Source of the DNA: Chitinophagaceae bacterium
Lineage (GTDB): Bacteria; Bacteroidota; Bacteroidia; Chitinophagales; Chitinophagaceae
DNA: 64,000 bases
Direction: 5' to 3'
NCBI GenBank assembly: GCA_023957155.1
Contig: JAMLHK010000003.1
Coordinates: 62,001-126,000 of the forward strand
The notes below the pieces were generated by a model. It searched no databases and was not told the origin of the DNA. It was given only the letters and a program-made list of their open reading frames with translations. Positions 7,249 through 29,800 of this stretch are shown here, piece by piece. Both the position numbers and the translations under genes were made by a program. Positions within the stretch are counted from its first letter, which is position 1, and every line of letters starts with the position of its first letter.

Positions 7249-7320
7249 CCCGCTTATGCAAATCTGAAGATTCAAATTCTTTACCCGCACAACCTATCGG
7301 TATACGATACGCCCCGGGTA

Positions 7321-11312: not shown

Positions 11313-11737
11313 TTTTTGTAATATAGGGTTATGTCTAAATTCCGGTATATACGCCGGATGCGCCAAAGTTAGTTCCGATGAATTGATTATAAAAAGAACC
11401 CAGGTTAATAAAGGTTAACATTTACCTGTTACTCCGCTTCGTACCTGTCCATTGTATAGACTAACCGCTCCGGGCAAATCAGAAACGAATGTGTTGAACA
11501 GCTATTGCTTTCCTCCTTTTGTGCACTATATGCTATAGATTAGCTCATGCCGCTAAAAATCAACAGGGCAATAAAACATAACCGGTGCTTTGCTGTTTTT
11601 AATTTATTTTTCATTTAACTTTAGTTTTTAAATCATCCCCAAACCTTAAACTGATCCGGGGACTTTTATAAAGCATCGCCATATTGAGTATAGAATAAAT
11701 AACCCATTATCTTTTTAATACATTATTTCCACAAACG
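11313..11737. other. Divergent intergenic region
   Basis: 425 bp between two divergently transcribed genes. AT-rich, no open frame of note, no clear hairpin or promoter match that I would defend. Promoters for both flanking genes should lie here. Confidence 0.6.
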
Positions 11738-12628
11738 ATGAGAGATATTACACGCCGCGATTTCTTACGTACTTCTACTTTAGCGGGGCTGGGAATAGCT
11801 GCTAACGGAACGTTAAGCAGCTTTAGTCCTGCAGCCTCCCGGATGCGCTTTGGACTGGTTACTTACCAGTGGGGCAGAGACTGGGACTTGCCCACCTTAA
11901 TTGCTAACTGTGAAAAATCGGGCTTACTCGGTGTTGAGCTCAGAACCCAGCATGCACATAAGGTAGAGATCAATCTGTCTGCTGCGGAACGCGCCGAAGT
12001 GAAGAAACGGTTTGCCGACAGCCCGGTTACCTGTATCGGCTACGGCTCCAACTTCGAATATCACAGTCCTGATCCGGCAGAACTGAAAGACAATATCGAA
12101 CAAACCAAAGCTTACCTGCAGCTGTGTAAAGATATCGGGGCCACGGGTATCAAAATAAAACCCAATACCCTGCCCGCTTCTGTTCCCAAAGAAAAAACCA
12201 TCGCACAGATAGCTGCCTCTTTTAACGAGGTAGGAAGATTTGCAAAAAACCTCGGGCAACTGGTAAGAGTGGAGGTGCATGGTCGTTTCACACAGGATAT
12301 CCCCAACATGAAAGCTATATTTGACCAGGTTACCGAACCGAATGTGAAAATCTGCTGGAACAGCAACCCGGAAGATCTTCTTCCCCCGGGGTTAGAGGAC
12401 AATTTCAATACACTGAAAAAATGGTTTGGGGATACGGTTCATGTACGGGAACTGAATATCGGCGATTATCCTTACCAGCAACTCATCGGCTTGTTTACCC
12501 GCATTAAGTACAACGGGTGGATACTCTTAGAAGCGCGGACAGAGCCCGCAGACAGGGTGCTGGCAATGAAAGAGCAGCTCGGGGTATTTAATACAATGAT
12601 TAAACAGGCAAAAAGAAGCAAAAAATAA
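11738..12628 (+). CDS. Tat-exported sugar phosphate isomerase/epimerase (TIM barrel)
   Basis: 296 residues. The N-terminus has a twin-arginine signal (TRRDFLRTSTLAGLGIAA) so the enzyme is likely periplasmic. The mature part is an AP-endonuclease-2-type TIM barrel (xylose isomerase-like): FGLVTYQWG at strand 1, LLGVELRTQHAHKVEI at strand 2, IGATGIKIKPNT, VRVEVHGRF, VKICWNSNPED and GWILLEART as successive strands with the Glu/His/Asp residues expected for metal binding. It would isomerise or epimerise a sugar or inositol-like compound; the substrate is not predictable. The next gene, 55 bp downstream, is a Tat-exported Gfo/Idh/MocA oxidoreductase, so the two probably act on the same compound. 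Confidence 0.87.
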   Translation: MRDITRRDFLRTSTLAGLGIAANGTLSSFSPAASRMRFGLVTYQWGRDWDLPTLIANCEKSGLLGVELRTQHAHKVEINLSAAERAEVKKRFADSPVTCIGYGSNFEYHSPDPAELKDNIEQTKAYLQLCKDIGATGIKIKPNTLPASVPKEKTIAQIAASFNEVGRFAKNLGQLVRVEVHGRFTQDIPNMKAIFDQVTEPNVKICWNSNPEDLLPPGLEDNFNTLKKWFGDTVHVRELNIGDYPYQQLIGLFTRIKYNGWILLEARTEPADRVLAMKEQLGVFNTMIKQAKRSKK

Positions 12629-12683
12629 CGATACCAACTGTAAATTATCTAAACGATTTATTCATTAAAAAAATAAAACAACG

Positions 12684-14066
12684 ATGCAAAAAAATTACCC
12701 GAGAAGGGAGTTTATCCGGAAATCGGCATTAGCCGGCGCCGGTGTCGGTATCAGCGCAATGGGTTTGAGCGCCAAATCATACGCTGCAATACCCGGTGCC
12801 AATGAACGACTGAATTTAGCCGTTATAGGTATTCACGCTCAGGGACAAACCCATATCAAGAGCTGGGCTGCACTAAAAACCAGCCGTAATGTGCGGATCA
12901 AAACCCTGTGTGATACCGATGAACAATGGTTTGCCTCCAGGGCTAAACTGGTAGCTGACCAAACCGGGGAAAAGCCCCTAACGGAATGGGATATGCGAAA
13001 AGTGTTTGATGATAAAGACATTGATGCCGTATCCTTCGCTACCCCCAATCACTGGCACGCACTGGGTACGATATGGGCCTGCCAGGCGGGAAAGCATGTA
13101 TATGTAGAGAAGCCCGCATCGCATGATATTTGGGAAGGACGCAAGATGGTTGAGGCTGCCCGGAAATACGACCGACGTGTACAGGTTGGTTTTCAGAACC
13201 GCTCTATCAGCAATGTAATGGAAGCCATCGAGTTTTTGCACAAAGGCGGCATCGGTAATGTATATATGGCACGGGGATTATGTATCAAGCCCCGTGATTC
13301 TTTTGGTATTACACCCGACAGTGCGCCTCCCGCCACCCTGCATTACGACCGCTGGCTGGGACCGGCTACCTGGCGCCCTTACAATGAAAAGAAAGGACAT
13401 TATAACTGGCACTGGTTCTGGGATACCGGTAACGGAGATACCGGCAACCAGGGACCGCATCAATTTGATATAGCCCGCTGGGGACTGAACAAAAATGAGC
13501 ACCCGGTTTCTATTTTCTCCAGCGGAGCGGTGTATGGTATTGATCCCAAAGAATGTGCCCAGGAAACCCCCAATACACAATCCTCCATTTTCAAATACAG
13601 TGACGGAACCTCGCTGGAATTTGAAACCCGGGGCCGGTATTCAAACGGAGAATCCGGTTTGGATATCCGCATTGGAAATATTTTTTACGGAACTGAAGGC
13701 TACATGGAAATTGAGGGAAGCACCTGGAAAGCTTACCGCCAGAGAGAAAAAGAACCCTTTGCCGGCTCAAAAGGTAAAAGTGATAAGATCCCGGATCCCC
13801 GGACTCCCCCCGGAGGCACGGAACATTACGCCAACTTTATAGACGCTATACGCGCTAATAATAATGATCTGCTGCACTGCGATATTAATGAGGGCTTCTT
13901 TTCATCTGCATTACCCCTGCTCGCTAATATTTCTTACCGTCTCGACAGAGGATTGAAATTCATGGGAGGAAATATGGACAGGGAAAAATTTGCCAATGAT
14001 CCCGAAGCGGATGAGCTGCTTACCCGCGTATACAGGCCGCCGTATATTGTTCCCAACGAGGTGTAG
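12684..14066 (+). CDS. Tat-exported Gfo/Idh/MocA family oxidoreductase
   Basis: 460 residues. A twin-arginine signal (RREFIRKSALAGAGVGISA) precedes a Rossmann NAD(P) domain starting LNLAVIGIHAQGQTH; the usual GxGxxG is altered to GIHAQG. The conserved EKPASHD block (EKP with the catalytic/nicotinamide Lys) is at about residue 150, followed by the C-terminal sheet domain with GHYNWHWFWDTGNGDTGNQG and HQFDIARW. This long subgroup is common in Bacteroidota and Planctomycetota sugar loci. It would oxidise or reduce a sugar-like substrate in the periplasm, possibly together with the isomerase 55 bp upstream. A strong hairpin follows its stop. Confidence 0.9.
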   Translation: MQKNYPRREFIRKSALAGAGVGISAMGLSAKSYAAIPGANERLNLAVIGIHAQGQTHIKSWAALKTSRNVRIKTLCDTDEQWFASRAKLVADQTGEKPLTEWDMRKVFDDKDIDAVSFATPNHWHALGTIWACQAGKHVYVEKPASHDIWEGRKMVEAARKYDRRVQVGFQNRSISNVMEAIEFLHKGGIGNVYMARGLCIKPRDSFGITPDSAPPATLHYDRWLGPATWRPYNEKKGHYNWHWFWDTGNGDTGNQGPHQFDIARWGLNKNEHPVSIFSSGAVYGIDPKECAQETPNTQSSIFKYSDGTSLEFETRGRYSNGESGLDIRIGNIFYGTEGYMEIEGSTWKAYRQREKEPFAGSKGKSDKIPDPRTPPGGTEHYANFIDAIRANNNDLLHCDINEGFFSSALPLLANISYRLDRGLKFMGGNMDREKFANDPEADELLTRVYRPPYIVPNEV

Positions 14067-14468: not shown

Positions 14469-15353
14469 TTACATAATCTCTTCCAGAGAAAGATATCGTT
14501 GCCTGTACTCTACCGGCGTACACCCCACGAGTTTTCGAAAATGACGGAAAAAATTTGAACGATTATTAAAACCACATTCATAGCAAATACTCTCGGTGGT
14601 ATACGAACCGCCTTCTATCAGCATGCGTTTGGCATGGCTGATGCGGATTTCGACCAGGAAGTCTGTAAATGATTTTTTGGTCATCGTTTTGAAATACCTG
14701 CAAAAAGAAGTAACTGTTAAATGAGCTACAGAAGCGATCTCCTGTAAGGATATATCCTCTTTGTAGTGGTTGAGCATATATGAATATATGCTATTGATCC
14801 TGTTAATCTCTTGCATATTTATATTATCAACTGCAACGCCGGATGCTATTTGAGTCATTTCTTTACTGCTCACAAGAGCATGAACCATATTCATGATCAA
14901 CACGAGCCTGTCGAATCCCTCTACTCCGACAGATTGTTTCATTAAAGCCAGCACCTTCCGCTTTGTTGCTCCATGTATTACAAATCCATACCTGGCACGA
15001 TCGAATAACCTGTGAAGCGCCGCAGATTCTTTCTTCATCATGAATTCTTTACCCATAAAGTCGGAAAGAAACTGAACTACAATTGCTTCTGCGGTGACTT
15101 GTGGGTCGCCCGCAAAATATTTATCACTGCACCGCCACATGTGGGGAAGACCCGCTCCCAGAAAAAGAAGCTCTCCCTCTTCAAAGTTTGAAATATTATC
15201 GCCCACAAACCGCACACCTTCTCCACGGATAATATAATGCAATTCGAGTTCCGGATGATAGTGCCAGACCGACCCGAAATTGGGAAGCGTATGCTGCCTG
15301 CACAAATAGGGGTATTCGGTATTACGCGGAACCAAATGGAAATGGGGCTTCAT
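14469..15353 (-). CDS. AraC family transcriptional regulator (cupin sensor)
   Basis: 294 residues from MKPHFH at 15353; the longer frame to 15404 adds a hydrophobic stretch foreign to the family. The N-terminal cupin-like domain contains WHYHPELELHYIIRGEGVRFVGD and GAGLPHMW. The C-terminal AraC double HTH has ISLQEIASVAHLTVTSFCRYFK and then SICYECGFNNRSNFFRHFRKLVGCTP. It is divergent from the SusC/SusD/BNR operon with 254 bp between starts, and that operon has no sigma/FecR or hybrid two-component gene. I therefore infer that it controls the operon in response to a sugar bound by the cupin domain. Confidence 0.92.
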   Translation of the reverse strand: MKPHFHLVPRNTEYPYLCRQHTLPNFGSVWHYHPELELHYIIRGEGVRFVGDNISNFEEGELLFLGAGLPHMWRCSDKYFAGDPQVTAEAIVVQFLSDFMGKEFMMKKESAALHRLFDRARYGFVIHGATKRKVLALMKQSVGVEGFDRLVLIMNMVHALVSSKEMTQIASGVAVDNINMQEINRINSIYSYMLNHYKEDISLQEIASVAHLTVTSFCRYFKTMTKKSFTDFLVEIRISHAKRMLIEGGSYTTESICYECGFNNRSNFFRHFRKLVGCTPVEYRQRYLSLEEIM

Positions 15354-15607
15354 AACAAACAACCTGTTTAAAAAACATACTACAATAATAAAAGAAGTAA
15401 ACATATCTCACTGTTCCTTCTTCTGCACCGGATCTTTCTTCAATGTAAATATAATTAAGCAATTCTTCTTAGATGAACGAGATGATAAATTAGTATACAG
15501 GGCAGGCAAAATGGTGAACAGATTATAGCTGTTTTAACAAGAATTTTGATCCATCGGAGTTCTGTTGTTCAGAGCAGAATATTTTGTCAAACCATAAATA
15601 ATTGCGT

Positions 15608-18600
15608 ATGAAAAAATTATTGCTATTTTTTTTCCTGCTTCTTATCGCTGCGTTGAATGTGTCTTCTCAAGAAACAAGAGTGGTATCAGGTATCGTAAGC
15701 GGGCCCGACGGCCCCTTGGCAGGCGTTTCCGTGTCGGCTAAACTTGCCGGTAATACGGTTGCTACAAACGAAAAAGGTAAGTATGTTATTACAGCCGGTT
15801 TTGCCGATACTCTGCTGATCAGTGCTATTGGTTACACGCCCATGCAAATACCCGTCGGTAACAGGGAAGTTATAGACGTGGATCTGTCTACGCATAGCTT
15901 ATCATTGGATGATGTGGTGGTGGTAGGATATGGAAGCCAAAAAAGGGTGAATCTAAGCGGGGCTGTCGGATTTGTAAAAATGTCTGATATATCAGATACC
16001 AGACCTGTAACCTCAATTTCTGCTGCATTGATTGGTAATCTGCCGGGATTATCCGGATCTGGATTTTCCGGAGAACCAGGGTCAAATTATGCTCTTAGGA
16101 TCAGGGGGTTTACAAGTATTAATGGGGGAGGGCCATTAGTTTTGGTAGATAATGTGCCAATGGACATTAACAATTTAAACCCTGCTGATATCGAATCCAT
16201 TAGTATACTCAAGGATGCGTCATCATCCGCTATATACGGGGCGCGGGCTGCTTTTGGTGTCATTTTGGTAACTACAAAGAAATCAAAGAAGGATCGGAAA
16301 ACACAGTTTAACTATTCAAATAAAACAACTTTGAGCCGTCCGCAGGCATTGGCTGAAAGGGCTACTCCACTGCAGCACGTTCAATTTCTTCATGACAACG
16401 CCGGAATCAGGAATACTACCTACTGGACCGGTCAGGATGTGCCGGCATGGCTGGATTTACTTAAAGAATATGAGGCAAACCCAGGCAAATATCCCGACGG
16501 GTATGCTGTGATAAATACTCAACGCTATCCTTTAAAACAAACGGATGTGATGGCGGATGTAATGGATAAGTATGGATTGTTAGAAATCAATGATTTCTCA
16601 ATAAGCGGGGGATCCTCGAAAACAACGTATCGTTTATCGGCAGGATCAACAAATGAAAACGGGGTGCTTTATTCAAATAAAGACAGCTATAAGAGATACA
16701 ATATAACTTCTTTTTTAAGTACAGATATCAAACCGTGGCTAACCACCTCCGTTTCGGCGCTCTATTCTAATTCAAACAAAAAAGATCCTTACAGACCGAC
16801 AATCAACGGAGTGAACGTTTGGACGGGAATGTCATACCTGCCATCCTATTTTCCAACGGATGGAGGTATGGATATTGATGGTACTTATTATGAATTTAAT
16901 AGCCCAAGGAACATAATAGAAAGGACTGTTCCGGATAAACTGCGTGAAGACCGGATGACCCTGTTTGGAAGTGTAGTCTTAAAACCGGTATCCGGACTAA
17001 CCATCACAGGTGAATATGCCTATAACAAGGATGACAATTCCCAGATCACTTTTGACAGAAAGATACAGGATATTGCCAATGGACTAATGTACCAGTTAGC
17101 TACACCGAACGTCACTAACTCAATTTATTACAATTCAGAAGCAAGAACTGATTACAAGACCCTGAATCTCTATGCCTCTTATACGAATAGCATTGGAAAT
17201 AATGAATTCACCCTTTTGGGTGGGTTTAATCAGGAACAAAGTGAATGGAAGACTTTGTATTCTCAAAGAACACAAATGATCAATGATGATCTTCCTTCAA
17301 TAGGTCAGGGAGTAGGACAAATAATATCGGGAGATAATTTTTCAGACTATTCTCTCAGGGGAGTTTTTTATCGCTTAAATTATTCCTATAAAAATAAATA
17401 TCTTTTTGAGGCCAATGGACGCTATGACGGATCTTCAAAGTTCCCGCCCGGTAATCACTTTGGGTTCTTTCCATCTTTTTCGGCCGCCTGGAAAATATCC
17501 GATGAAGATTTTATGCAAAATTTGAAATCAATATTCCCTCTTATTAAGCTGAGGGCATCGTGGGGGAGTATTGGGAACCAGGCTATATCGCCTTACCTGT
17601 TTCTTGCCGGAATGACCAGTAGTAATGCGAATTGGGTGACTACAGATGGGCTAAGACCAATAACTTTAAGTGTTCCTTCACTGATCAGAACCAATTTTAC
17701 CTGGGAAGAATCTCAAACAACAAATGTGGGGTTAGATCTTAGTATGTTTAATGGGAAACTTTATTCTTCATTTGACATTTACACCCGTAAAACGTTAAAT
17801 ATGTTAGGTCCGGGCATGGATTATCCCAACATAATAGGGGCTTCATCGCCCTTGCAGAATGCAGCAGATCTTGTTACAAAAGGATGGGAATTTGAAGGAA
17901 CATGGAAAGATAAAGTGGGAAATGTTTCATACAGACTGGTGGTAAACATAAGTGACGCCTATGCTAAAATCACAAGATTTAAGAATGAAAATAAGGTTTT
18001 GAATACTTATTACGAGGGGCAAAAAATTGGTGAAATATGGGGATACGTTACAGATAGATTATATACAGTCGACGATTTCGTGGAAGGAACTTTGAAGGAA
18101 ACCGGTGATGGCGTTTTGACCGGAGGAACCTTAAAACCCGGCATTCCCAAAATGAGAGGAACTTTCCCGAATGTAGGAGATGTTCTATATAAATATCCCG
18201 ATGAAAAAGGGGAGGTCTGGAGTGGGGCAAGTACAGTTGATAACCCGGGCTCAAGGAGAATTATCGGGAATAATACGCCAAGGTATTTGTATGGTATCAC
18301 AGGAGAAGTAGCGTATGGAGGCTTTTCCATTACTATTTTTCTGGAAGGAGTTGGAAAGAGAGACCTGTGGTTAAGTAATAATCTTATTTTCCCGCATGAG
18401 CAAGCACAAACTACGGCTGTATATGCTCATCAGTTAGATTATTGGACTCCTGAAAATCCAAATACAGATGCATATTTTGCCCGCTCATATATCCTCAACG
18501 GATTGAATACCGCTGTTAACCGGCAGGTTCAGACCCGCTATTTGCAGAATGCCGCATATTTAGATATTAAAAGTGTAACTTTTTCTTACAACGTGCCTAA

Positions 18601-18775
18601 AAGCATAATTGATAAGCTAAAACTTGATAAGGCTACGGTATATCTTAATGGTGAAAACATATGGTCTTTTAACCACCTTCCAGAAGGCTTGCATCCCGCT
18701 ACTCAATCAAGAGGCGGGGGGGCTATTTATCCAGTAATGCGAAAAATTACATTAGGGATAAATATTTCATTTTAA
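15608..18775 (+). CDS. SusC/RagA-family TonB-linked outer-membrane transporter (locus 1)
   Basis: 1055 residues from the ATG at 15608 (a TTG two codons earlier is less likely), with a signal peptide ending near ALNVSSQ. Domain order is CarboxypepD_reg (VSGIVSGPDGPLAGVSVSAK), TonB-box region (LDDVVVVGYGSQKR), plug with SALIGNLPGLSGSGFSGEPG and IYGARAAFGVILVTTKK, and a barrel ending in Phe (LGINISF). There is no N-terminal STN domain, so it should not signal through a FecR. It would import the oligosaccharide captured by the SusD partner 21 bp downstream. Six further genes follow on the same strand. Confidence 0.95.
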   Translation: MKKLLLFFFLLLIAALNVSSQETRVVSGIVSGPDGPLAGVSVSAKLAGNTVATNEKGKYVITAGFADTLLISAIGYTPMQIPVGNREVIDVDLSTHSLSLDDVVVVGYGSQKRVNLSGAVGFVKMSDISDTRPVTSISAALIGNLPGLSGSGFSGEPGSNYALRIRGFTSINGGGPLVLVDNVPMDINNLNPADIESISILKDASSSAIYGARAAFGVILVTTKKSKKDRKTQFNYSNKTTLSRPQALAERATPLQHVQFLHDNAGIRNTTYWTGQDVPAWLDLLKEYEANPGKYPDGYAVINTQRYPLKQTDVMADVMDKYGLLEINDFSISGGSSKTTYRLSAGSTNENGVLYSNKDSYKRYNITSFLSTDIKPWLTTSVSALYSNSNKKDPYRPTINGVNVWTGMSYLPSYFPTDGGMDIDGTYYEFNSPRNIIERTVPDKLREDRMTLFGSVVLKPVSGLTITGEYAYNKDDNSQITFDRKIQDIANGLMYQLATPNVTNSIYYNSEARTDYKTLNLYASYTNSIGNNEFTLLGGFNQEQSEWKTLYSQRTQMINDDLPSIGQGVGQIISGDNFSDYSLRGVFYRLNYSYKNKYLFEANGRYDGSSKFPPGNHFGFFPSFSAAWKISDEDFMQNLKSIFPLIKLRASWGSIGNQAISPYLFLAGMTSSNANWVTTDGLRPITLSVPSLIRTNFTWEESQTTNVGLDLSMFNGKLYSSFDIYTRKTLNMLGPGMDYPNIIGASSPLQNAADLVTKGWEFEGTWKDKVGNVSYRLVVNISDAYAKITRFKNENKVLNTYYEGQKIGEIWGYVTDRLYTVDDFVEGTLKETGDGVLTGGTLKPGIPKMRGTFPNVGDVLYKYPDEKGEVWSGASTVDNPGSRRIIGNNTPRYLYGITGEVAYGGFSITIFLEGVGKRDLWLSNNLIFPHEQAQTTAVYAHQLDYWTPENPNTDAYFARSYILNGLNTAVNRQVQTRYLQNAAYLDIKSVTFSYNVPKSIIDKLKLDKATVYLNGENIWSFNHLPEGLHPATQSRGGGAIYPVMRKITLGINISF

Positions 18776-18796
18776 AATCTTTACAAATAATCGGTT

Positions 18797-20659
18797 ATGA
18801 AGAAAATTCTTAAGTATACGGTTTTTATACTTTGCCTGAAAAACTTTAGCGCCTGTAAATCGGATAATTTCCTGGAAGTGCCCCCGAAAAATTTGCAAAC
18901 TGAAGGTACGGCATTTAAAACATATGATAACTTTCAGACCTATGCATGGGGCTTTTATACCCTGTTTGAACAGTTTGCATACGAACGCCCTACAGGCTAC
19001 GAATTTGATGCATACGGTGGCGCCCTGGCACAGACTAACACCACCAATTCAAATTTTTGGGCATACCAAAGAGTCACAGAGGCTGGTCAAAGTGGTGCAT
19101 GGAATTTTTCGTATATACGACAGGTAAACACATTGTTGGATAATGTTGATTTATCGGCTATGACCCAGGCAGATAAGGAGCATTGGCGAAGTGTAGGACT
19201 GTTTTTCAGGTCTTTGAAATATTTTGAGCTTCTTTCGAAGTTTGGAGATGTTCCATGGATAGAACATGTGCTAAAGGAAGCAGATACGGACATTATATTT
19301 GGTAAGCGAACACCTCGCGATGAAGTGGCAAAAAATATATTAAGGGATCTCAATTTTGCTGAACAACATATTAAAGCAGAGGGCGATGGGGCAAATACCA
19401 TCAATGTAAACGTTGTAAGGGCTCTGATATCACGGTTCGGATTATTTGAGGGAACATGGAGAAAATATCATGGGTTAAGTGATGCCGATACCTACCTTAG
19501 AGCCTGTTCTGACGCGTCAGATAAAATTATGAATGCTTTTCCGGTATTACATCACAATTATGATGAATTATTCAACTCCGAAGACCTGTCGGCAACGAAA
19601 GGGATACTGCTCTACAAGAGATATGAGGCTGATGTTTTGACAAACAGTATATCAAGAACTGAAGGAGGCTCCGGAATTTTCTATGAAATGACGAAAGAAA
19701 CGGTGGATGGTTATTTATGCACGGACGGAAGGACCATAGCCAACAGCCCGCTGTATAACGGTGACAAGACAGCCTATGATGAGTTCCGTAACCGTGACAG
19801 GAGACTTCTTTTTACAGCTATTCCACCGTACCGGGTATTTATGCCAGACAGGAATAATTGGCGGTACCTGACAACGCAGGATATCATAACGAGAGGAAAA
19901 ATCACGGAGCAGGTAACTGTGGCTGACAGTGTGCTTTATCGTGAGTACTTGGACTTAATGACAACAATATCAACGCCGGATAAAAAGTACCTCCCGACAT
20001 CGGCATGGACCGGAAATGAGCCGATTCCATATATACCCAGGTTTAGAACGTTTACCGAAGGGTTCGCCGTACATAGCGGTCAGCACGGTTATAAAGTGTG
20101 GAAATACTATAATAAAAATGCAAGGCCGATAATAGCATCGACAGCCGATGCGCCGTTGTTCAGAGTTGGAGAAGTTATGCTAAACTATGCGGAGGCGAAA
20201 TGGGAACTGGGTGCGTTTGATCAGGGTGTAGCCGACAGAACCATAAATGTTTTACGTGTACGGGCGGGTGTTGCTTCCATGAATGTTGGCGAAATTAACG
20301 GGTCCTTTGATCCAAACAGGGATCAGGAGGTTGATCCCGTTTTGTGGGAGATCCGCCGGGAGCGCCGTGTTGAATTATTGGGAGAAGGTTTTGCATTCGA
20401 TGATATTCGAAGGTGGAAAAAGGGAGCGTATCTCAATAAGCAGCCTTTAGGGCGTTGGGTTAATAATGCTGAATATAATAACACCCTGCGTATTCAGGGG
20501 TATGCATCGGTGGCAGCAAGCGCGGATAAAGAGGGATATATTATATATTGTGCGCCACCACCGGGCTGGTTAGAACATTATTATCTTTATCCTTTACCCA
20601 TAACCCAGTTAGTGCTTAACCCCCAGCTTGTTCAGAATCCCGGCTATGCAACGCCCTGA
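18797..20659 (+). CDS. SusD/RagB-family surface glycan-binding lipoprotein (locus 1)
   Basis: 620 residues. A lipoprotein signal with Cys20 (KNFSACKSD) starts the mature protein. SusD hallmarks are FLEVPPKNLQTEG, the tetratricopeptide-like helices (RSLKYFELLSKFGDVPWI), LFRVGEVMLNYAEAKWELG and IRRERRVELLGEGFAFDDIRRW near the C-terminus. It sits on the outer face of the outer membrane as the lid of the SusC upstream. It is longer than average SusD, consistent with a large or decorated ligand. Confidence 0.95.
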   Translation: MKKILKYTVFILCLKNFSACKSDNFLEVPPKNLQTEGTAFKTYDNFQTYAWGFYTLFEQFAYERPTGYEFDAYGGALAQTNTTNSNFWAYQRVTEAGQSGAWNFSYIRQVNTLLDNVDLSAMTQADKEHWRSVGLFFRSLKYFELLSKFGDVPWIEHVLKEADTDIIFGKRTPRDEVAKNILRDLNFAEQHIKAEGDGANTINVNVVRALISRFGLFEGTWRKYHGLSDADTYLRACSDASDKIMNAFPVLHHNYDELFNSEDLSATKGILLYKRYEADVLTNSISRTEGGSGIFYEMTKETVDGYLCTDGRTIANSPLYNGDKTAYDEFRNRDRRLLFTAIPPYRVFMPDRNNWRYLTTQDIITRGKITEQVTVADSVLYREYLDLMTTISTPDKKYLPTSAWTGNEPIPYIPRFRTFTEGFAVHSGQHGYKVWKYYNKNARPIIASTADAPLFRVGEVMLNYAEAKWELGAFDQGVADRTINVLRVRAGVASMNVGEINGSFDPNRDQEVDPVLWEIRRERRVELLGEGFAFDDIRRWKKGAYLNKQPLGRWVNNAEYNNTLRIQGYASVAASADKEGYIIYCAPPPGWLEHYYLYPLPITQLVLNPQLVQNPGYATP

Positions 20660-20739
20660 TCGTTTCGGAACCTGTAAAGAAGGAAAATTTTCAAAGTTGC
20701 ACAATGAAATTTCAGGTATTTATTTGATTTCAAAGTATT

Positions 20740-22512
20740 ATGAAACTAAAAGCTTTATTTATTGGTGTCGCGGTTCTTAGATCAGTGTGTATTTACGCAC
20801 AGGATCATTTTGTCGAGCACAATATTTCTGATTTCCGAGAGATATATAAGCCCGTGGTTCTTGCTATTCCGCCTGCTGACGCCGGGCGTGGCTTAATTAA
20901 ACTAAAAACCGGAGAGATCAGGCACTATGGAGGCGAAGTTTACGGACAGGAAGTTTCACGGGTTAATTATATATACTCTATCGACAATGGGATTCACTGG
21001 AAAGAAGGGTTTCTTCATCCGGGCGAAATTTCGGCAGACTTTCAAAGCCCAAAGACAGGAGCGTTTTACCGTTTATTCTCAGTAAGAAATAAGGGGTTAT
21101 TTTTTGCCAAAACAGAAGGTGGCATAAATGGAAAAACCATTTTTTCAACAATTGATTCCTTAGGAACCTGGCTATGGCCGCGAAGAGCTATTTATATCCC
21201 GGGAAAAAACAGGATACTCTTTCCTTGCAATACAGATCAAAGTGGGTCTATAGTTTATTATACGGATGATGAGGGTTTAAGCTGGAAACGCACAGATTGG
21301 ATTACTGTTTCCGACGGGCGGATCGAAGGCGATAATAAAAGCCTGCGTTGGCAGCAGCTTGGGGTGGAACCCTCTTTGGTTCAATTAAAAGATGGAAGAA
21401 TATGGATGATATTGCGCACGTCACATGATCAGTTTTACGAATCCTTCTCGGAAGATTTTGGGGAAACATGGAGTTCTCCCACTCCTTCCCGTTTTTATGG
21501 AACGAATACAATGCCGAATATCTTTCGAATGTCTGATGGTAGGTTGCTGTTTTTTTGGTGCAACTCAACGCCATTACCTGAGTTTCCAAAGCCATCCTAT
21601 ATGAAATATTTTCTCGGCGATGGTATAATTGAAGGTAAAAGGGAAGATGTTTTTACCAATAGGGATGTAATTCATGTAGCTATATCCGACGATGATGGCA
21701 ATACATGGAAAGGTTTTCGGGAATTGTATCTGACAACGCAAAGGAATAGTTCAAATTACGGGCTTTTGGGGGAAGGGAATGATAAAAGTGTCCATCAGTC
21801 TCAATGTATCGAATTGGGCGAGGGGAAGATCCTTCTTTCCTGTGGGCAAAATAGTGCATTTCGGGTGCTTGTTGCCTTTGATGTTGCATGGTTGTATGAA
21901 AAAGAGCGGAAAAATGATTTCTCATCCGGTATTGATGATCTATGTGTCTTTCAGTATATCTCCGGAAAGGTCGGGCACTGCTCCCTGAATAGAAAAGCCG
22001 GGGCTAATATTATTCCGGATCCTGAAGACAATAACAACAAGGTTCTTAAGATTTGCAATCCCATGGAATCCAGCTTGGTGATAGAAAATCAGGGGGCTAC
22101 CTGGAATTTTCCCTCCGGTAAGAAGGGAGAGGTATCATTAGATTTATATTTAACGGATGAATTTAAAGGAGCTAATATCTCTCTTATTGACAGATGGTTT
22201 AACCCGGTAGATACAACCGCTTATAAAAACGCAATGTTTGTTCTTGATATAGGAGCAGATGCATACCTGGCAAAGAAGATTAAGTTAGACCGGAATAAAT
22301 GGTATCGTATTACAGTTTCGTGGGATTATTTAGATAAGAGTGAAAAACTTTCTGACTGTTCTGTTGTGATCAACGGACAGAAACAAAAAATTAAATTACC
22401 ACTTATAAATAATACACTAAATGGAATATCGTACCTCCATCTTCAATCACGCGCAAAGGAAAAAGACTCCGGAGGATTTTATGTTGACAACTTTTATTCG
22501 ATTGTTAAGTAA
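20740..22512 (+). CDS. Sialidase-fold (BNR) enzyme with C-terminal LamG-like domain
   Basis: 590 residues with a Sec signal (MKLKALFIGVAVLRSVCIYAQ). Four Asp-box-like motifs mark a six-bladed propeller: SIDNGIHWK, TDDEGLSWKR, SEDFGETWS and SDDDGNTWKG. Residues from about 400 onward look like a concanavalin/LamG jelly roll (EVSLDLYLTDEFKGANISL, WYRITVSWDYLD). The canonical FRIP/arginine motif of true GH33 sialidases is not visible near the N-terminus, so the bond cleaved is uncertain. GH33 members also act on Kdn and Kdo, and related BNR propellers include rhamnose-glucuronate lyases. Its position after SusCD argues for cell-surface or periplasmic attack on an acidic glycan. Confidence 0.82.
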   Translation: MKLKALFIGVAVLRSVCIYAQDHFVEHNISDFREIYKPVVLAIPPADAGRGLIKLKTGEIRHYGGEVYGQEVSRVNYIYSIDNGIHWKEGFLHPGEISADFQSPKTGAFYRLFSVRNKGLFFAKTEGGINGKTIFSTIDSLGTWLWPRRAIYIPGKNRILFPCNTDQSGSIVYYTDDEGLSWKRTDWITVSDGRIEGDNKSLRWQQLGVEPSLVQLKDGRIWMILRTSHDQFYESFSEDFGETWSSPTPSRFYGTNTMPNIFRMSDGRLLFFWCNSTPLPEFPKPSYMKYFLGDGIIEGKREDVFTNRDVIHVAISDDDGNTWKGFRELYLTTQRNSSNYGLLGEGNDKSVHQSQCIELGEGKILLSCGQNSAFRVLVAFDVAWLYEKERKNDFSSGIDDLCVFQYISGKVGHCSLNRKAGANIIPDPEDNNNKVLKICNPMESSLVIENQGATWNFPSGKKGEVSLDLYLTDEFKGANISLIDRWFNPVDTTAYKNAMFVLDIGADAYLAKKIKLDRNKWYRITVSWDYLDKSEKLSDCSVVINGQKQKIKLPLINNTLNGISYLHLQSRAKEKDSGGFYVDNFYSIVK

Positions 22513-22531
22513 TAAGTCTTTAACATTTTAT

Positions 22532-23809
22532 ATGAAGGTATTATTTGCTGCTATTCTAGCATTGGCTACTCTGCCTGCTTTGTCACAGAATAAAAAAGAG
22601 ATAAAGCGGATCGAACAAAAAAATGAAACTCATTTTCAAAAAATGAGTGCTGAAGAAGTTAAACGCTACGAACGTAAACTGATGCGGCAGGTTGCAGACC
22701 TTGCGCTAATACCACCTGCGATCAATACCTCACCGCTTCCCAAGTATGATTACAATACCCAGCATTATGTGATGTCGCTTACTATTGAGCGAACAACCGG
22801 GGGGCGTCTCTGGGCGGCATGGATAGGCGAATGTGACTGTGCGAACTCCTATTTACTGGCGGCTACCAGCGATGACAATGGTGAAACCTGGTCGAAGCCC
22901 AGGCTGGTTATTGATGCAAGGTCTCAATCCATACCGATACAAAGAACTGTTATTATCGGCAACTTTTGGACAGATCCTTTAGGAAGGCTGTGGCTGTTCT
23001 TTGACCAGACGATGAACGCTTTTGATGGTAGAAGCGGACTTTGGTCAATCGTCTGCGAAAACCCTGATGACGAAAGTCCGATATGGTCGGAACCAAAGCG
23101 CATCTCTCATGGCTCAATGCTGAACAAACCGGTTGTGCTATCATCGGGTGAGTGGCTGCTGCCCTCATACCTGTTGCAGAATAATGGGTTTGGCCCCTTT
23201 AGCAGGGTTTTCCCTGAGTTGGATCCCTATCGCGGAGTGAATATATTAGTTTCAGCGGACGAGGGGAAAACCTGGAAGCTACGGGGCGTCAGGTCTTTTC
23301 CAAATCCTGACTGGCATGAGCCGATGATTATCGAAAAAAATGATGGCATATTGTGGATGATGACCAGAACACAAAAAGGGATTATGGAATCGTTTTCTGC
23401 AGATAAAGGATACACCTGGTCTGAGCCTGCATTTACCAGGGCCGATATTCAACACCCCAGCTCAAGGTTCTTTTTCCGCAGGTTGAAATCCGGTCGTATA
23501 CTCCTGATTAAAAATGGAAAGGAGTTACATAAAAACGAGGGGCGCAATTATTTCAGCGCCTGGCTTTCCGAAGACGATGGTGAGACCTGGAAAGGGGGGC
23601 TTGTAATAGATGACCGTCCTAATGTTTCTTATCCGGATGGATTTCAAAGTCCTGACGGAACGATATATATAGCATACGAGCATAATCGCGGACCAGGCGA
23701 AATTACATTGGCGAGATTTACCGAAGATGACGTATTAAATGGTGAGATCGTAAGCGCTCAATCAAGGCTACAAACAATAATGGTTCAACCGGGCAAAAGT
23801 AAAAAGTAA
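22532..23809 (+). CDS. Second sialidase-fold (BNR) enzyme
   Basis: 425 residues from MKVLFAAILALATLPALSQ at 22532, chosen because it opens a signal peptide 19 bp after the previous stop; the frame is open further upstream inside that gene. Asp-box motifs are SDDNGETWS, SADEGKTWK, SADKGYTWS and SEDDGETWKG, with the C-terminal motif SYPDGFQSPDGTIYIAYEHNR-like (residues ~375-395). The IGECDCANSY and NPDWHEPMI segments could provide active-site residues. It lacks the accessory domain of its neighbour and is not a recent duplicate. I infer that the two propellers cleave successive or differently linked residues of one substrate. Confidence 0.83.
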   Translation: MKVLFAAILALATLPALSQNKKEIKRIEQKNETHFQKMSAEEVKRYERKLMRQVADLALIPPAINTSPLPKYDYNTQHYVMSLTIERTTGGRLWAAWIGECDCANSYLLAATSDDNGETWSKPRLVIDARSQSIPIQRTVIIGNFWTDPLGRLWLFFDQTMNAFDGRSGLWSIVCENPDDESPIWSEPKRISHGSMLNKPVVLSSGEWLLPSYLLQNNGFGPFSRVFPELDPYRGVNILVSADEGKTWKLRGVRSFPNPDWHEPMIIEKNDGILWMMTRTQKGIMESFSADKGYTWSEPAFTRADIQHPSSRFFFRRLKSGRILLIKNGKELHKNEGRNYFSAWLSEDDGETWKGGLVIDDRPNVSYPDGFQSPDGTIYIAYEHNRGPGEITLARFTEDDVLNGEIVSAQSRLQTIMVQPGKSKK

Positions 23810-23847
23810 CTTTTACGTGCAACAGAATCAATTAATAAATATTTAGG

Positions 23848-24930
23848 ATGGCGGTTACAAGAATTGCGGGTGTTTTAGCTGTAGGCGCATTGGTGGGTAT
23901 GCTGATTTTTTGGATAACAGGCATAGGTCATATTTATATACCTCCATTGTTAATTTCATTTTTCATTACCACCGCTATTGCATTTCAGGGATACCAGAAG
24001 CTGAAGGGATTTAGCTACACCCAGGTGATACTGGCAAGTTTTACCGCGGCGGTTTGCTATCCCGGATATTTTACCACGTGGGGCAACTTTAATCTTTCAA
24101 CCCTTATAACACCTTCTATCCAGCTCATCATGTTTGGGATGGGAACTACGATGGGATTGCGTGATTTTATCGGTGTTGTAAAAATGCCAAAGGGAGTTTT
24201 CATTGGCGTGGTAAGCCATTTTATTATCATGCCTTTGGTGGGTTTTTTGCTGGCGAGCTCCGGTGGATTGGATCCTGAGATCGCAGCAGGTATTGTTCTC
24301 ATCGGGTGTTCACCGAATGGTATGGCTTCCAACGTAATTTCCTATCTGGCGCGGGCAAACGTAGCGCTCTCTATTACTATTACCGCCATCTCCACTATGC
24401 TGTCTCCTTTAATAACGCCTTTGCTTATGAAATTGCTTGCAGGGGCTTTTGTCGAGATTAATGCTTTTGATATGATGTGGGATATTATGAAAATGGTTAT
24501 TCTTCCCATTGTGGCAGGCTTGCTCTTTAACCGTTTTTTTCATGGTAAATTGAAATGGATGGATCGTGCAATGGCTTATGTATCCATGTTTGGTATTGCT
24601 TTCTCTATTGTAGTGATTGCCGCTGCCGGTCGCGATAATTTATTGTCTATTGGGTGGCTGCTTCTTTTCCTTGTGCTGCTGCATAATATAATTGGCTATT
24701 TTCTGGGCTATTGGTCGGCTAAATTGTTTAAGATGAGTGAACGCGATTGCCGTACTGTGGCGATAGAAGTAGGGATGCAGAATGCAGGGCTGGCCTCAGG
24801 AATTGCAAAAGAAATGGGCAGGTTGGCCACTATGGGATTAGCCCCGGCTATATTTGGACCGCTTATGAATATTACCGGATCTATCCTTGCTTCATGGTGG
24901 CACCGAAAAACTCCGAAAACCGATGATTAA
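23848..24930 (+). CDS. BASS-family (bile acid:sodium symporter-like) transporter
   Basis: 360 residues, about ten hydrophobic segments. The family signature region is present: FGMGTTMGLRDFIGV, HFIIMPLVGFLLA, GIVLIGCSPNGMASNVISYLA and LSPLITPLLMKLLAGAFVE, with EVGMQNAGLASGIAKE near the end. Known BASS proteins import organic anions such as bile acids, pantoate, pyruvate and other 2-keto acids with sodium. In this operon, between propeller enzymes and a kinase-aldolase pair, it is the obvious inner-membrane importer of the released acidic product. The N-terminal ~40 residues are longer than in the minimal family. Confidence 0.9.
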   Translation: MAVTRIAGVLAVGALVGMLIFWITGIGHIYIPPLLISFFITTAIAFQGYQKLKGFSYTQVILASFTAAVCYPGYFTTWGNFNLSTLITPSIQLIMFGMGTTMGLRDFIGVVKMPKGVFIGVVSHFIIMPLVGFLLASSGGLDPEIAAGIVLIGCSPNGMASNVISYLARANVALSITITAISTMLSPLITPLLMKLLAGAFVEINAFDMMWDIMKMVILPIVAGLLFNRFFHGKLKWMDRAMAYVSMFGIAFSIVVIAAAGRDNLLSIGWLLLFLVLLHNIIGYFLGYWSAKLFKMSERDCRTVAIEVGMQNAGLASGIAKEMGRLATMGLAPAIFGPLMNITGSILASWWHRKTPKTDD

Positions 24931-26008
24931 CAGAAAGCATATATATTATTGGAAGTCCGATCGTCCGCATACTTTACTCAACACGCATAATACTTCGGAC
25001 ATCGAGTATAAGGTAATTGAAGCGCAACTCCGTGAATATTTGAATTTAAACTACCGTAAAGACCTGCTCCGGTTAACCGTTGCGGAAGGACAGGGAGATC
25101 ACATCACGTACATTGCTCATTACCCGGACAGGGAATACTTTATCCGGTTGGAGAACGGCCCTGAAAAAGACGATTATATGATGATCGAATCGGCTATTCT
25201 GAAAGAAGTGAAGGCGCTTGGCGTACCTTCTCCCGCTGTATTCCTTACGGATACTTCCCGCAGCCAGGTGCCTTTTGCGATACAGGTGATGGAAAGGATT
25301 GTAGCGAAAGACCTGAATGAGCTTGACAAATATGGTACGTTAGATACAACAGAAGTAGCGGTTGCCATTGGCACTTATATTGCAAAATGGCAGGATATCA
25401 AACCGCTCAAATACGGCCTTTTTAATTCCAACACGCTGTCTGCTACCGGAACATTGGAGGGATATCATAGCACTTATGCGGATTACTTCTACCTTAATTG
25501 GGATGTTCATCTCGACTTTCTTTGCTCATCCGGTTTTATAAGCGAATCGTTGGTTGCAGCGCTTCGGGAAATCCTTCGCCGGTTTGATCACCTGCTGGAG
25601 TTAAGTGAAGGTTGCCTCGTACATAAAGACCTTGCTTTATGGAATATTTTAGGTTCCAATACTGAAATCATTGCGTTTATAGATTGGGCTGACGCCATAT
25701 CCGGAGACCCCACGGATGACTTGTCGCTTTTAGCCTGTTTCCATCCCGGTGAGGTTGTATTGTCGGCTATTGAAGGCTACAAGAGGGTACGCAGGCTGCC
25801 GGTTAATTTTGAACAACGGTTCTGGCTTCATCTGCTGCGCAATATCATTTTCAAAGCGGTGATCCGGGTTAAAGGCGATTACTTCGATAAGCCAGGGAAT
25901 TTCTTTTTACTCAATCCCAGGCAAAATGACCTTAAACAATTTACATTGGATCGGATAGACAGCGCGTACAGGGGATTGAAGGGGGAAAAAGATATTGGTT
26001 CGTTATGA
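24923..26008 (+). CDS. APH-fold small-molecule kinase
   Basis: 361 residues from the ATG at 24923, which overlaps the transporter stop by 8 bp; a longer frame to 24887 is less likely. The choline/aminoglycoside kinase catalytic loop is HKDLALWN (about residues 234-241) and the metal-binding Asp is in FIDWADAISGDPTDDL. The N-lobe has RLENGPEKDDYMMIESAILKEV with a likely ATP-binding Lys/Glu pair. Members phosphorylate antibiotics, choline, amino acids or sugars. Tight coupling to a transporter and an aldolase indicates a catabolic metabolite kinase rather than a resistance enzyme. Confidence 0.85.
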   Translation: MINRKHIYYWKSDRPHTLLNTHNTSDIEYKVIEAQLREYLNLNYRKDLLRLTVAEGQGDHITYIAHYPDREYFIRLENGPEKDDYMMIESAILKEVKALGVPSPAVFLTDTSRSQVPFAIQVMERIVAKDLNELDKYGTLDTTEVAVAIGTYIAKWQDIKPLKYGLFNSNTLSATGTLEGYHSTYADYFYLNWDVHLDFLCSSGFISESLVAALREILRRFDHLLELSEGCLVHKDLALWNILGSNTEIIAFIDWADAISGDPTDDLSLLACFHPGEVVLSAIEGYKRVRRLPVNFEQRFWLHLLRNIIFKAVIRVKGDYFDKPGNFFLLNPRQNDLKQFTLDRIDSAYRGLKGEKDIGSL

Positions 26009-26772
26009 AAAATATAGATCAGTTCAAAGCTAAACATCTCCAGTTCGGTACATGGATCAGCTCCGGTTCACCGGTTGTTGCAGAACTGGCCAGCTATTTT
26101 TCAATAGACTGGCTGCTATTTGATTTTGAACATGGTAATGCCGGCGAAGCACAGGTATTGGAAATGCTGCGTGCTGTTGCATCACAACCCGTGACTGTAA
26201 TTGTACGTGTTGCTGCATTAGATCCTGCTATTATTTCCAGGATACTGGATTGGGGTGCAGATGGTATTATGCTGCCGCATGTTCGGTCTGCCGATGAGGC
26301 CTTGCGTTGCGTATCAGCAATGAGGTATCCGCCACATGGCACGCGGGGCTATTCTTCTTCAGTTCGTGCTTACCGTTATGGCACGGATGTTCCTGCTGAA
26401 GCTGTAAAAATCAAGCCTTTGTTTTTTGCCCAAATAGAAGATATGGCGGGTGTGCAGAATAGCCGGGAGATCGCTGCGGTAGACGGGGTTGACGTGTTGT
26501 TTGTTGGCCCGTCTGATCTACGCCTGGATTTGGAGCATAATCCTGCAGCGCGAATCGTCTCATTTGAATCAGCCATACAGCAGGTAGCAGATGCAGCAAA
26601 TACACATCATAAGAGAGCGGGTATCCTTTTGCGTGACTACTCGGCATTGAAAAGAATGCAAGCATTAGGTTTTAGCAGCGTGGCTATAGATTCGGATATC
26701 GGTATTTTGCGTGCCGGATACAAAAAGATAGCAGAACATGTAGCCGCTATTCGCCAAAGTACCGGGGAGTAA
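26005..26772 (+). CDS. HpcH/HpaI-family class II pyruvate aldolase
   Basis: 255 residues, start overlapping the kinase stop (ATGA). The family pattern is GTWISSGSPVVAELASY, DWLLFDFEHGNA (His43 as the likely base), TVIVRVAALD, GADGIMLPHVRSADEA, GTRGYSSSVRAYRYG, FAQIED (metal Glu) and VGPSDLRLDL. These metal-dependent aldolases cleave 2-keto-3-deoxy acids to pyruvate and an aldehyde, for example 4-hydroxy-2-oxoheptanedioate or 2-keto-3-deoxy-L-rhamnonate. As the last gene of the operon it would complete breakdown of a ketodeoxy sugar acid after phosphorylation by the upstream kinase. Exact substrate unknown. Confidence 0.92.
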   Translation: MKNIDQFKAKHLQFGTWISSGSPVVAELASYFSIDWLLFDFEHGNAGEAQVLEMLRAVASQPVTVIVRVAALDPAIISRILDWGADGIMLPHVRSADEALRCVSAMRYPPHGTRGYSSSVRAYRYGTDVPAEAVKIKPLFFAQIEDMAGVQNSREIAAVDGVDVLFVGPSDLRLDLEHNPAARIVSFESAIQQVADAANTHHKRAGILLRDYSALKRMQALGFSSVAIDSDIGILRAGYKKIAEHVAAIRQSTGE

Positions 26773-26881
26773 CAACAGCATGTATGTACAGGATACCGGT
26801 TTGCAGCTATTGTGCTATCTTTCCCATCAAACCATCAGTATGCCGTATAAACTCAGTAGAAAAAATACCACCTTTAATCCA

Positions 26882-29800
26882 ATGCTCAAAAAATATATGC
26901 TCCCACTCCATTATCGTATTTTATTTTGCTGTGCTTCCCTTTTATTTTCCTGCTCTACAAAAGTGAAGGTAGCACACCGGCTTAACCCTCAACCCAACAG
27001 CCATATTGTATTCATAGGAAACACTTTTGCGGAACGGTTGCAGTATTACAACTATTTTGAGCCATTATTGTATGCAAGCTTTCCCGACCGGGATATCACG
27101 GTAAGGAACTTAGGATGGAGCGCGGATGAGATCAATATCCAATCCCGCCCGTTAAACTTCCCTTCACAGGATGAATACCTGAGCAGAGTGAAAGCGGATA
27201 TTATCTTTGCCTGCTATGGTTTGAACGAGGCATTTAAAGGAGCTGACAGCCTCGACAGCTTTAAGCAACAGCTGGCCGCTTACTTACAGCATATACAGCA
27301 GCAAAAGTACAATGGGGAAACACCGCCGGAAATCATACTGGTATCTCCCATCGCTCATGAAAAGCTGGGCGGCTTTTTGCCCGACCCGGCAGCGCATAAT
27401 AAAAATCTCAGCCTTTACACTAAAGGCATGCAGGAAGTTGCACAACAATTGAACATCCCTTTCATCAATCTTTTTGAGCCATCAAAAAAACCGTCCGAAG
27501 GTGCAGATTCCATTACCATTAATGGCATTCACCTTAACGATGCAGGATACAAAGCGGTAAGCGAAATAATGGCCGCATCACTGGGACTACCTGTTGTCAC
27601 ATGGACAGACGATAGCCATATCGTTAACCTCAAAAAAATAATTGATCAGAAAAATCAGCAGTTTTTTTATTTGTACAGGGCGGTAAACAGCGAATACATT
27701 GTAGGCAGACGTAAGGAACCGTGGGTACAGCCGCCGGGCGGCCCCATCTCCTACCCCCGCGAGCTAACAAAATTAGATAACATGGTTACCCGCTTAGACA
27801 GTGTGATATGGGTGCAAAGTAAAAAAGACGATATCGCTCATTTCGTGCAGGCGAATAAAATATTGAATGACACCATCCAGTACACGCCGATTGATAAAGC
27901 TACGCTAAAAAAGCCAAGCACAGAACAGTTTATTTTGCCGGAAGGATACGAGATCAATCTTTTTGCATCTGAAGTGGATTTTTCACTCACCAATCCCGTA
28001 AAAATAACGTTCGATCCACAAGGCCGGCTATGGGTGGCAGATATGGCTTCCTATCCGCAATACCTCCCGAGTGCTCAACCCAATGATAAAATTATTGTTC
28101 TCGAAGACAGCAATGGCGATGGCGTGGCCGATAAGGAAACCATTTTTGCAGACAGCTTATACGTGCCCACCAGTATGGAGCTCGGCAATGGAGGCATATA
28201 CGTATCGCAACCGCCAAATATATTGTTCTTAAAAGATACAGATGGAGACGGGAAAGCAGATCAGAAAGAAATTATTCTGCACGGGTTCGGAACGGAAGAT
28301 GTGCATCATTCTATAGATACCTATACCTGGGGACCCGATGGTGCACTGTACTGGCATACCGGCACCTTTTTACACTCGCAGGTGGAAACGCCTTACGGCC
28401 CGCAACGGGGCGATTACGGTATTACGTGGCGCTTTGAGCCGCTTACGCAAAAATTAGAACCGTATGTTTCTTATCCTTATGCTAATCCCTGGGGGAACGT
28501 GTTCGCCCGCAACGGCACCCAGATCATCAGCGACGTATCTACCGGCATGAACTATTTTGCACCGCCCCTTACGGTAGCTACCCGGTATCCATTGAAATTA
28601 ACGGGCATGAAGGATTTTTTAACATCGGCTGCAAAGCCCAAAACCTGCGGTACCGAGATCATTTCCAGCAACAACTTTCCCAATGAAGTCCAGGGCAATG
28701 TGCTGTTTAATACCTTCATCGGCTTCCAGGGCATCAAACAGCATCGTATACACGAAGATGGCAGCGGCATCATCGCTCATGAAACAACGCCGCTCCTTCA
28801 ATCCACCGATCCCAACTTCCGGCCGGTTGACCTGCAGTTTGGTCCCGATGGCGCTTTGTATGTGGCAGACTGGTACAATCCCATCATCAATCACGGCGAA
28901 AGAGCGTTGCGCGACCCCTTGCGGGATCATACGCATGGCCGGATATGGCGTATCACGTATAAAAACAAAAAACTGTCGCCGGTTGTTGATCTCACTAAAC
29001 TTGCTATAGCACAACTGCTTGACCAGCTTAAAGCCTACGAGAACAGGCTGCGGTACAGGGTTCGCACGCGGCTCCGGCAAATACCTGCCGAAACTGTTAT
29101 TCCTGCTTTGCAGAAATGGATCGCCGCGCTGGATGTTAATGACAAAGATTATGAGCAGAACAAGCTGGAAGCTTTATGGGTATACCAGCAATTCAATCAG
29201 CCCAACGAAAAATTGTTGGATGAATTGCTGAAAAGTAAAGACCCGCATATAAGAACAGCCGCTACAAGAGTTTTGTTTTACTGGAAAGATGTCATAAAAA
29301 ACGCAGCATCCAAACTGATCCAGCTGTCACAAGACAGCTCGGCTGGCGTAAGACTGCAGGCTATAGTATCGCTAAGCCATTTTAATACGGAGGAAGCTGT
29401 TAACGCTTTGCTGGAAACAACAACGCTGCCAACAGACTATTACATTGACTATACCTTACAACAGGCGTTCAGGCATTTACAACCCGTGTGGATGGGCATG
29501 TTTAAAGAGAATAACCAGTTCCTGGCCAACGAACCCGGGAAAGCTCACCGCCTGCTGGGTTCACTTTCTAATGAAAAGGAATTACAGGTGCCCGGCTTTA
29601 TCACCGATGACCCCGCCTGGCCAAAATACGGGTATAAAGCGCTAACCGACCAGGATTACGAAGCATTAAAGGACGCGGTAGCCGTAACTGCTTTCAGAAA
29701 AAGTCTTGAAGCTCCTGTCGCAGAAGCAACAACAGCAGAAGTTTCCATTCCCGGTAAAACAGTGATCCGTTTAACTGCCGTGCCCGGCCGGATGGCTTTC

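Follow-up and report, generated by a model that had tools for sequence, protein, structure and literature searches.

The NanA-NanK-NanE route of sialic acid breakdown relies on a lyase of the DHDPS fold (NanA) and a kinase of the ROK family (NanK). The known inner-membrane sialate transporters, as described in the part of PMC10017367 available to us, are of the TRAP, SSS, ABC and MFS (major facilitator superfamily) types, BASS not being among them, and the same part describes the Sphingobacterium aldolase specific for 3-deoxy-D-glycero-D-galacto-nonulosonic acid (Kdn) (Nakagawa 2022) as a NanA with a key Asp50. Regarding release, the founder of family GH181, AmGH181 (Amuc_1547), is presented in the accessible part of PMC10067855 as an inverting sialidase active on N-acetylneuraminic acid (Neu5Ac) substrates. 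In this study, we analysed a 64-kb stretch (the window) of contig JAMLHK010000003.1, from a draft Chitinophagaceae genome (4.61 Mb, 26 contigs, 88 % complete), and we focused on a gene run at positions 15608-26772 that may be an unrecognised way to eat sialic-acid-like sugars.

All genes of the run lie in the same direction on the + strand. They encode, in order, a SusC-like TonB-dependent transporter (15608-18775, with an ATG start at 15608 and an in-frame TTG at 15602), a SusD/RagB-like glycan-binding lipoprotein (18797-20659; Pfam SusD_RagB, 147.7 bits), two propellers (propeller 1, 20740-22512; propeller 2, 22532-23809), a BASS/SBF (PanS-like) organic-anion:Na+ symporter (23848-24930), an APH-fold small-molecule kinase (24923-26008) and an HpaI/GarL-family pyruvate aldolase (26005-26772). 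From SusC onward, the intergenic gaps are 21, 80, 19, 38, -8 and -4 bp, the last two being an 8-bp overlap between the BASS and kinase genes (24923-24930) and an ATGA overlap between the kinase and aldolase genes (26005-26008), both read directly from the sequence. Pfam matches were above cut-offs for SBF (134.2 bits, cut-off 24.3), APH (64.7 bits), HpcH_HpaI (111.9 bits) and BNR_2 (67.5 and 110.7 bits). Open reading frame (ORF) coordinates and these matches bear out the run as an earlier note on this DNA had described it, overlaps included.

With slightly better than even confidence, we read this locus as a polysaccharide utilization locus for glycans carrying a 2-keto-3-deoxy ulosonic acid. 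This acid would be set free, taken up and phosphorylated before being cleaved into pyruvate and a sugar phosphate. This reading rests on gene order and overlaps, recurrence, active-site conservation and the sialidase fold of propeller 2. SusC and SusD would bind and import the oligosaccharide, the two sialidase-fold propellers, predicted to be exported, would detach the terminal ulosonic acid, either on the cell surface or in the periplasm, and the BASS protein would carry the free acid to the cytosol with sodium. The kinase would then phosphorylate the acid and the aldolase would convert it to pyruvate and an aldose phosphate, i.e. mannose-6-phosphate if the acid is Kdn, arabinose-5-phosphate if it is 3-deoxy-D-manno-octulosonic acid (Kdo). 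Both phosphates enter central metabolism via general enzymes, and no further dedicated enzymes would be required; the conserved cytosolic set consists of the kinase and the aldolase alone. We infer the transport substrate, the order of the kinase and aldolase steps and the identity of the sugar, which is more likely Kdn- or Kdo-like than Neu5Ac. A bolder claim, which we hold at clearly less than even confidence, is that of a phosphorylated-ulosonate pathway not previously described and common to Bacteroidota and Verrucomicrobiota, with an APH-fold ulosonic-acid kinase, an HpaI-family ulosonate-phosphate lyase, a BASS importer, and GH181 and GH33-like ketosidases for a non-N-acetylated ulosonic acid such as Kdn. 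No description of such a module was found in the open-licence PubMed Central literature, judged from titles and abstract openings.

The kinase was searched for in 294 genomes of the same family, which yielded seven matches including its own: four close (own, 54 %, 51 % and one split in two pieces of 51 % and 56 %) and three weak (E 1e-5 to 8e-4), with no match in the four same-genus genomes listed. A profile of ten kinases matched a single genome, that of the window, among 395 sampled Bacteroidota, and 20 out of 387 genomes in the phylum of L021, a Prosthecobacter metagenome-assembled genome (MAG), the genome of L021 included. Scanning GTDB genomes by pattern retrieved ten loci, from Sphingobacterium (L014, L016), Parapedobacter, Pedobacter, Pollutibacter, Larkinella, Prosthecobacter and other MAGs, an undercount since only two patterns derived from three kinases were used; the carriers named include the cultured Parapedobacter composti, Larkinella punicea, Sphingobacterium haloxyli and Pollutibacter soli. 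The kinase-aldolase module is thus rare and patchy in Bacteroidota and commoner in Verrucomicrobiota. In total, 28 loci of both phyla were annotated by profiles built from those same loci. They included seven of the ten scanned loci (L017, L019 and L022 being the genomes of L011, L012 and L013) and Verrucomicrobial regions from 17 of the 20 matched genomes (centre included), the three left out being G299, whose locus is L021, the fragment G886, and G795, with 49.6 bits. The stretches examined were 4 to 21 kb long, and absences near contig ends carry little weight.

An aldolase gene was found on the same strand and less than 0.8 kb from the kinase gene in 26 of the 28 loci, at no more than 190 bp except in L013, where one piece of the split kinase is 431 bp away, and in L054, where the distance is 784 bp. 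No aldolase was found in L060 (another context) and L065 (contig ending in the kinase). BASS lies less than 1 kb from the kinase in 20 loci, and a propeller of the families of the locus less than 12 kb away in 25 (none in L021, L054 and L060). The kinase-aldolase pair, mostly accompanied by BASS, recurs with BNR genes in other genomes; the earlier note had named a failure to recur in this way as a refutation. The family of propeller 2 was present in 23 loci, fused to the BNRc4 propeller family in eight Verrucomicrobial ones. By chance placing, 13 triplet genomes with counted BNR_2 genes would be expected to yield about 0.8 loci having such a gene less than 12 kb away, and a propeller was observed in 12 of these 13, the expected count relying on PF13088 matches and the observed one on the locus profile families (i.e. 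different models), and BNR genes being clustered. Pairwise divergences of kinase and aldolase were correlated (r 0.91, 25 genomes, common descent not controlled for), L013 (kinase in two pieces), L060 and L065 (no aldolase) being excluded.

Some of these loci showed peculiarities. The kinase-family member of L060 (G1030:C199, 9098-10159) has no aldolase, BASS or propeller in its stretch and possibly has another role; it lies near what look, from the sequence itself, like an SDR gene and a GH4-like one, and this genome has 24 HpaI-family hits elsewhere. In L013 (G201:C15), a propeller (5945-7434), a BNRc4-type gene (10142-11838) and the kinase (12871-14011) are each in two overlapping frames, as is the aldolase of L061 (8282-9047), which probably reflects assembly errors or decay.

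The kinase carries an APH domain with the HxDxxxxN motif and the metal-site Asp, as in APH-fold small-molecule kinases. In the aldolase, H43, R68, Q143, E145 and D171, which we take to be the HpaI-type His base and the Arg, Gln, Glu and Asp metal or substrate residues, were found in 11 of 11 sequences, which supports the identity first given to this protein. The order of the two steps may be reversed, since the 2-keto-3-deoxy acids used by known HpaI-type aldolases are unphosphorylated; among these enzymes are GarL, HpaI and RhmA, its closest relatives with a name. For the same locus and sugar class, the aldolase would then cleave the free acid, giving pyruvate plus an unphosphorylated aldose such as mannose or arabinose, which the kinase would phosphorylate. 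APH-fold sugar kinases do exist, and the structural matches of the kinase include methylthioribose kinase, fructosamine kinase and maltokinase. However, invariant basic residues on its C-terminal helix weakly suggest an acidic acceptor, hence a kinase-first order, and we consider the aldolase-first order unlikely, albeit with a real chance of being correct.

A second HpaI-family aldolase of the window's genome (G000:C11) is located 9 bp from another BNR_2 propeller gene (L048, 8407-9222 and 9232-10407, both on the - strand). By eye, among the hits listed, HpaI genes are also less than 2 kb from BNR_2 at G299:C12 and at C61, C124 and C258 of G1030, and for most other HpaI hits listed, the lists show no BNR_2 hit nearby. 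Pairing of BNR and HpaI genes may extend beyond the triplet.

Concerning the transporter, the PanS equivalog cut-off was not reached (229 bits vs 400). In L049, an MFS protein occupies the BASS position, its best model being the D-galactonate transporter (279 bits vs a cut-off of 395). A BASS-kinase fusion at this locus was rejected, as what precedes the kinase in that frame is an overlapping read, and the gene upstream encodes this MFS transporter.

Instead of a nonulosonic acid, the sugar might be one of the seven- to eight-carbon ulosonic acids found in lipopolysaccharide or in the walls of plants or algae, i.e. 3-deoxy-D-lyxo-heptulosaric acid (Dha) or Kdo. This is a special case of the favoured reading, with which it overlaps, and we give it a low but tangible probability. 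A BT_1020-like propeller family occurs in six of the 28 loci (Bacteroidota L011, L013, L014, L015 and L016; Verrucomicrobial L055), and two of its members weakly match the N-terminal domain of BT_1020 (24.9 and 22.6 bits vs a cut-off of 27), the GH143 Dha hydrolase; moreover, GarL, the closest match of the aldolase, acts on a diacid. Yet the BT_1020 matches remain below the cut-off, and the window lacks this propeller and has a GH181 homologue instead. Another conserved propeller family, BNRc4/GH573 (L011:9352-11073, L018:11822-13498, L056 and others), is possibly five-bladed, a blade number guessed from a weak match to mannooligosaccharide phosphorylase. PDB searches with this family gave no convincing match, and one stand-alone Bacteroidota member and one Verrucomicrobial member scanned had no Pfam match.

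As judged by alignment, propeller 1 is a GH181 homologue with retained catalytic residues (phmmer E 2.2e-84 against 8hls). All seven residues listed from those named in the available parts of two papers (PMC10067855, PMC12018670), i.e. the R234, R305, Q367 triad, H349-Q350, E218 and D345, are kept in the 8hls alignment, together with R40, W212, E289, E299, D300, H411 and C412 of AmGH181. Four residues, I88, P109, I110 and M154, are named from docking as the N-acetyl pocket of AmGH181 in the part of PMC12018670 available. All four are lost in propeller 1 (I88 and M154 in gaps, P109->N117, I110->K118), in a region where the alignment is uncertain and with AmGH181 as the sole GH181 member compared; other changes are H171->N164, N214->Q206, W298->R301 and E344->N347. 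Since the catalytic residues are kept but those of the N-acetyl pocket are lost, we infer that propeller 1 could be a working GH181 machine for another C5 substituent, as in Kdn.

Neu5Ac breakdown would need an epimerase, a deacetylase and a deaminase, and no gene for any of them is in the conserved module; NanE had no match in the window's genome, AGE-type epimerase and NanK not being searched for. These absences and the changed pocket make it improbable that the locus serves Neu5Ac catabolism by non-homologous enzymes, with N-acetylmannosamine or its phosphate going onward via the amino-sugar route, even though the founder AmGH181 acts on Neu5Ac substrates (PMC10067855, available part) and GntR proteins scanned in two loci are closest to the NanR model.

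Propeller 2 (BNRb family) displays a six-blade sialidase fold, 49 of the 50 structural matches listed being sialidases by name and the other a designed protein (4j9t). Its residues are numbered from 22421, where the longest ORF starts; 22532 is an in-frame ATG before a signal-peptide-like stretch. E300, R316, R375 and Y404 are invariant in the 29 rows of the family alignment longer than 200 residues (three of 32 being dropped as shorter) and, in the five alignments listed, fall on the Glu/Tyr nucleophile pair and two triad Arg of GH33. In GH33, the remaining triad Arg sits in the N-terminal FRIP motif. The family alignment of propeller 2 shows no invariant Arg in blade 1, i.e. no FRIP triad Arg; the sole invariant Arg are R316, R375 and R423, the latter in the last blade, and we propose that R423 replaces the missing one. 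By its residues, propeller 2 is a GH33-like ketosidase. Given this likeness and the invariant last-blade Arg, a missing FRIP motif alone does not mean a non-sialidase site: the lack of FRIP noted earlier stands, but the suspicion of non-classical sialidases drawn from it is tempered by the ulosonate-ketosidase active-site residues kept in both propellers. Although some polysaccharide lyases have propeller folds and BNR_2 is a broad family, the same residues, the sialidase names among the structural matches and the KdgA-family aldolase already present in all genomes searched make it very improbable that, as the earlier note had suggested as an option, the propellers are lyases giving an unsaturated uronate, with the kinase and aldolase replacing KdgK and KdgA. 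PL27 and PL42 propeller lyases were not among the 50 structural matches listed, an absence which excludes nothing.

Besides the substrates of HpaI-type aldolases, several observations weigh against the proposed ulosonate pathway. The KdgA family (PF01081) was above cut-off in every one of the 14 genomes searched, of which 13 carry the triplet, and in the window's genome it lies on the same contig as the run. This genome also holds, on another contig, a DHDPS-family lyase (NanA superfamily, under the NanA cut-off) at a distance of 3-6 kb from two genes of BNR type. That NanA, NanE, NanK, KdgK and KdgA are lacking, as stated at the outset, is true of the run alone; genome-wide, the KdgA family is present and NanE has no match, KdgK and NanK not being searched for. 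NanA (TIGR00683) gave only sub-cut-off hits in 11 genomes, which discriminates little as only one of 14 controls was above. With the KdgA family in all 14 genomes and a second candidate locus in the window's own, the module need not stand in for a missing enzyme, and the idea that it replaces a missing KdgA is weakened. Furthermore, the divergence of BASS follows that of the kinase more loosely (r 0.46, 19 genomes, common descent not controlled for), L021 and L054 have the triplet without a propeller in the stretch examined, and the further propellers of other loci (BT_1020-like or of unassigned type) have no role explained by the pathway. Five Verrucomicrobial loci with a GntR regulator (L061-L065) show no BASS in the stretch examined, and the two of their GntR proteins that were scanned have NanR as best model, a weak likeness (82.9 and 79.7 bits vs a cut-off of 260). 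Several propellers of these loci lack a signal peptide by eye, and the release step may therefore not always be outside.

The second candidate acid-sugar cluster (G000:C5, L046, 2710-12155) comprises two BNR-type proteins, of which one exceeds the Pfam BNR_2 cut-off and the other falls just short of it. The DHDPS-family lyase is also part of it, together with an SDR and an MFS transporter that scores best against the galactonate transporter model.

Divergent from the run, an AraC-family regulator (14469-15404, - strand; cupin and HTH_18) was identified by domain and homologue matches. An AraC-family regulator is found in five loci; besides the window, these are L011, L012 and L013, where a homologue lies upstream of SusC, and L018, where one is beside a propeller, the homologues scoring 563-573 bits. 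Downstream, 7 bp after the aldolase, a gene on the + strand (26780-30133) encodes a GDSL hydrolase + DUF7133 + HEAT + cupredoxin protein, a possible continuation of the operon; its membership is uncertain because no homologue clusters beside the triplet in the ten other loci compared. Beyond the AraC gene, positions 11738-14066 encode a TIM-barrel protein resembling xylose isomerase and a protein of the Gfo/Idh/MocA type, each beginning with a twin-arginine-like stretch; in L012, a comparable position is occupied by a Gfo/Idh gene and a TIM-barrel-like one. A tRNA scan of the window found zero tRNA genes.

Overall, what the earlier note observed is confirmed and its interpretation is partly supported. 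If the proposed pathway is true, ulosonic acids can be consumed by a second chemistry, in which three of the cytosolic or membrane parts are non-orthologous. The pathway would give functions to a clade of APH-fold kinases and a clade of HpaI-family aldolases named by no curated model, as well as a new substrate class to the BASS family, and the GH181 branch and the FRIP-less GH33-like branch would be likely sources of new ketosidase specificities. This would also be relevant to the sugars resembling sialic acid in algae, fungi, plants and soil bacteria.

Compared with the NanA-NanK-NanE route, the proposed pathway shares sialidase release, import, a pyruvate-yielding aldolase, a kinase and a sugar phosphate, whereas here the aldolase is of the HpaI family, the kinase has the APH fold, the transporter is a BASS protein and the module includes no epimerase. 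GarL, HpaI and RhmA are alike in family and catalytic residues, but the aldolase scores far under their curated equivalog cut-offs (168.5, 162.9 and 110.9 bits vs 393, 368.8 and 441) and has an invariant His92 where the GarL structure carries Phe. The Sphingobacterium Kdn aldolase, as far as the available part of its description goes, likewise concerns Kdn breakdown in Bacteroidota, and orthologues of the triplet occur in Sphingobacterium too; it is, however, a NanA, whereas the window aldolase belongs to the HpaI family. Finally, AmGH181 and propeller 1 are alike in the catalytic and metal-site residues named in the accessible parts of the sources, and they differ in the N-acetyl pocket, in W298, H171, N214 and E344, and in their partner genes, which here form a catabolic triplet.

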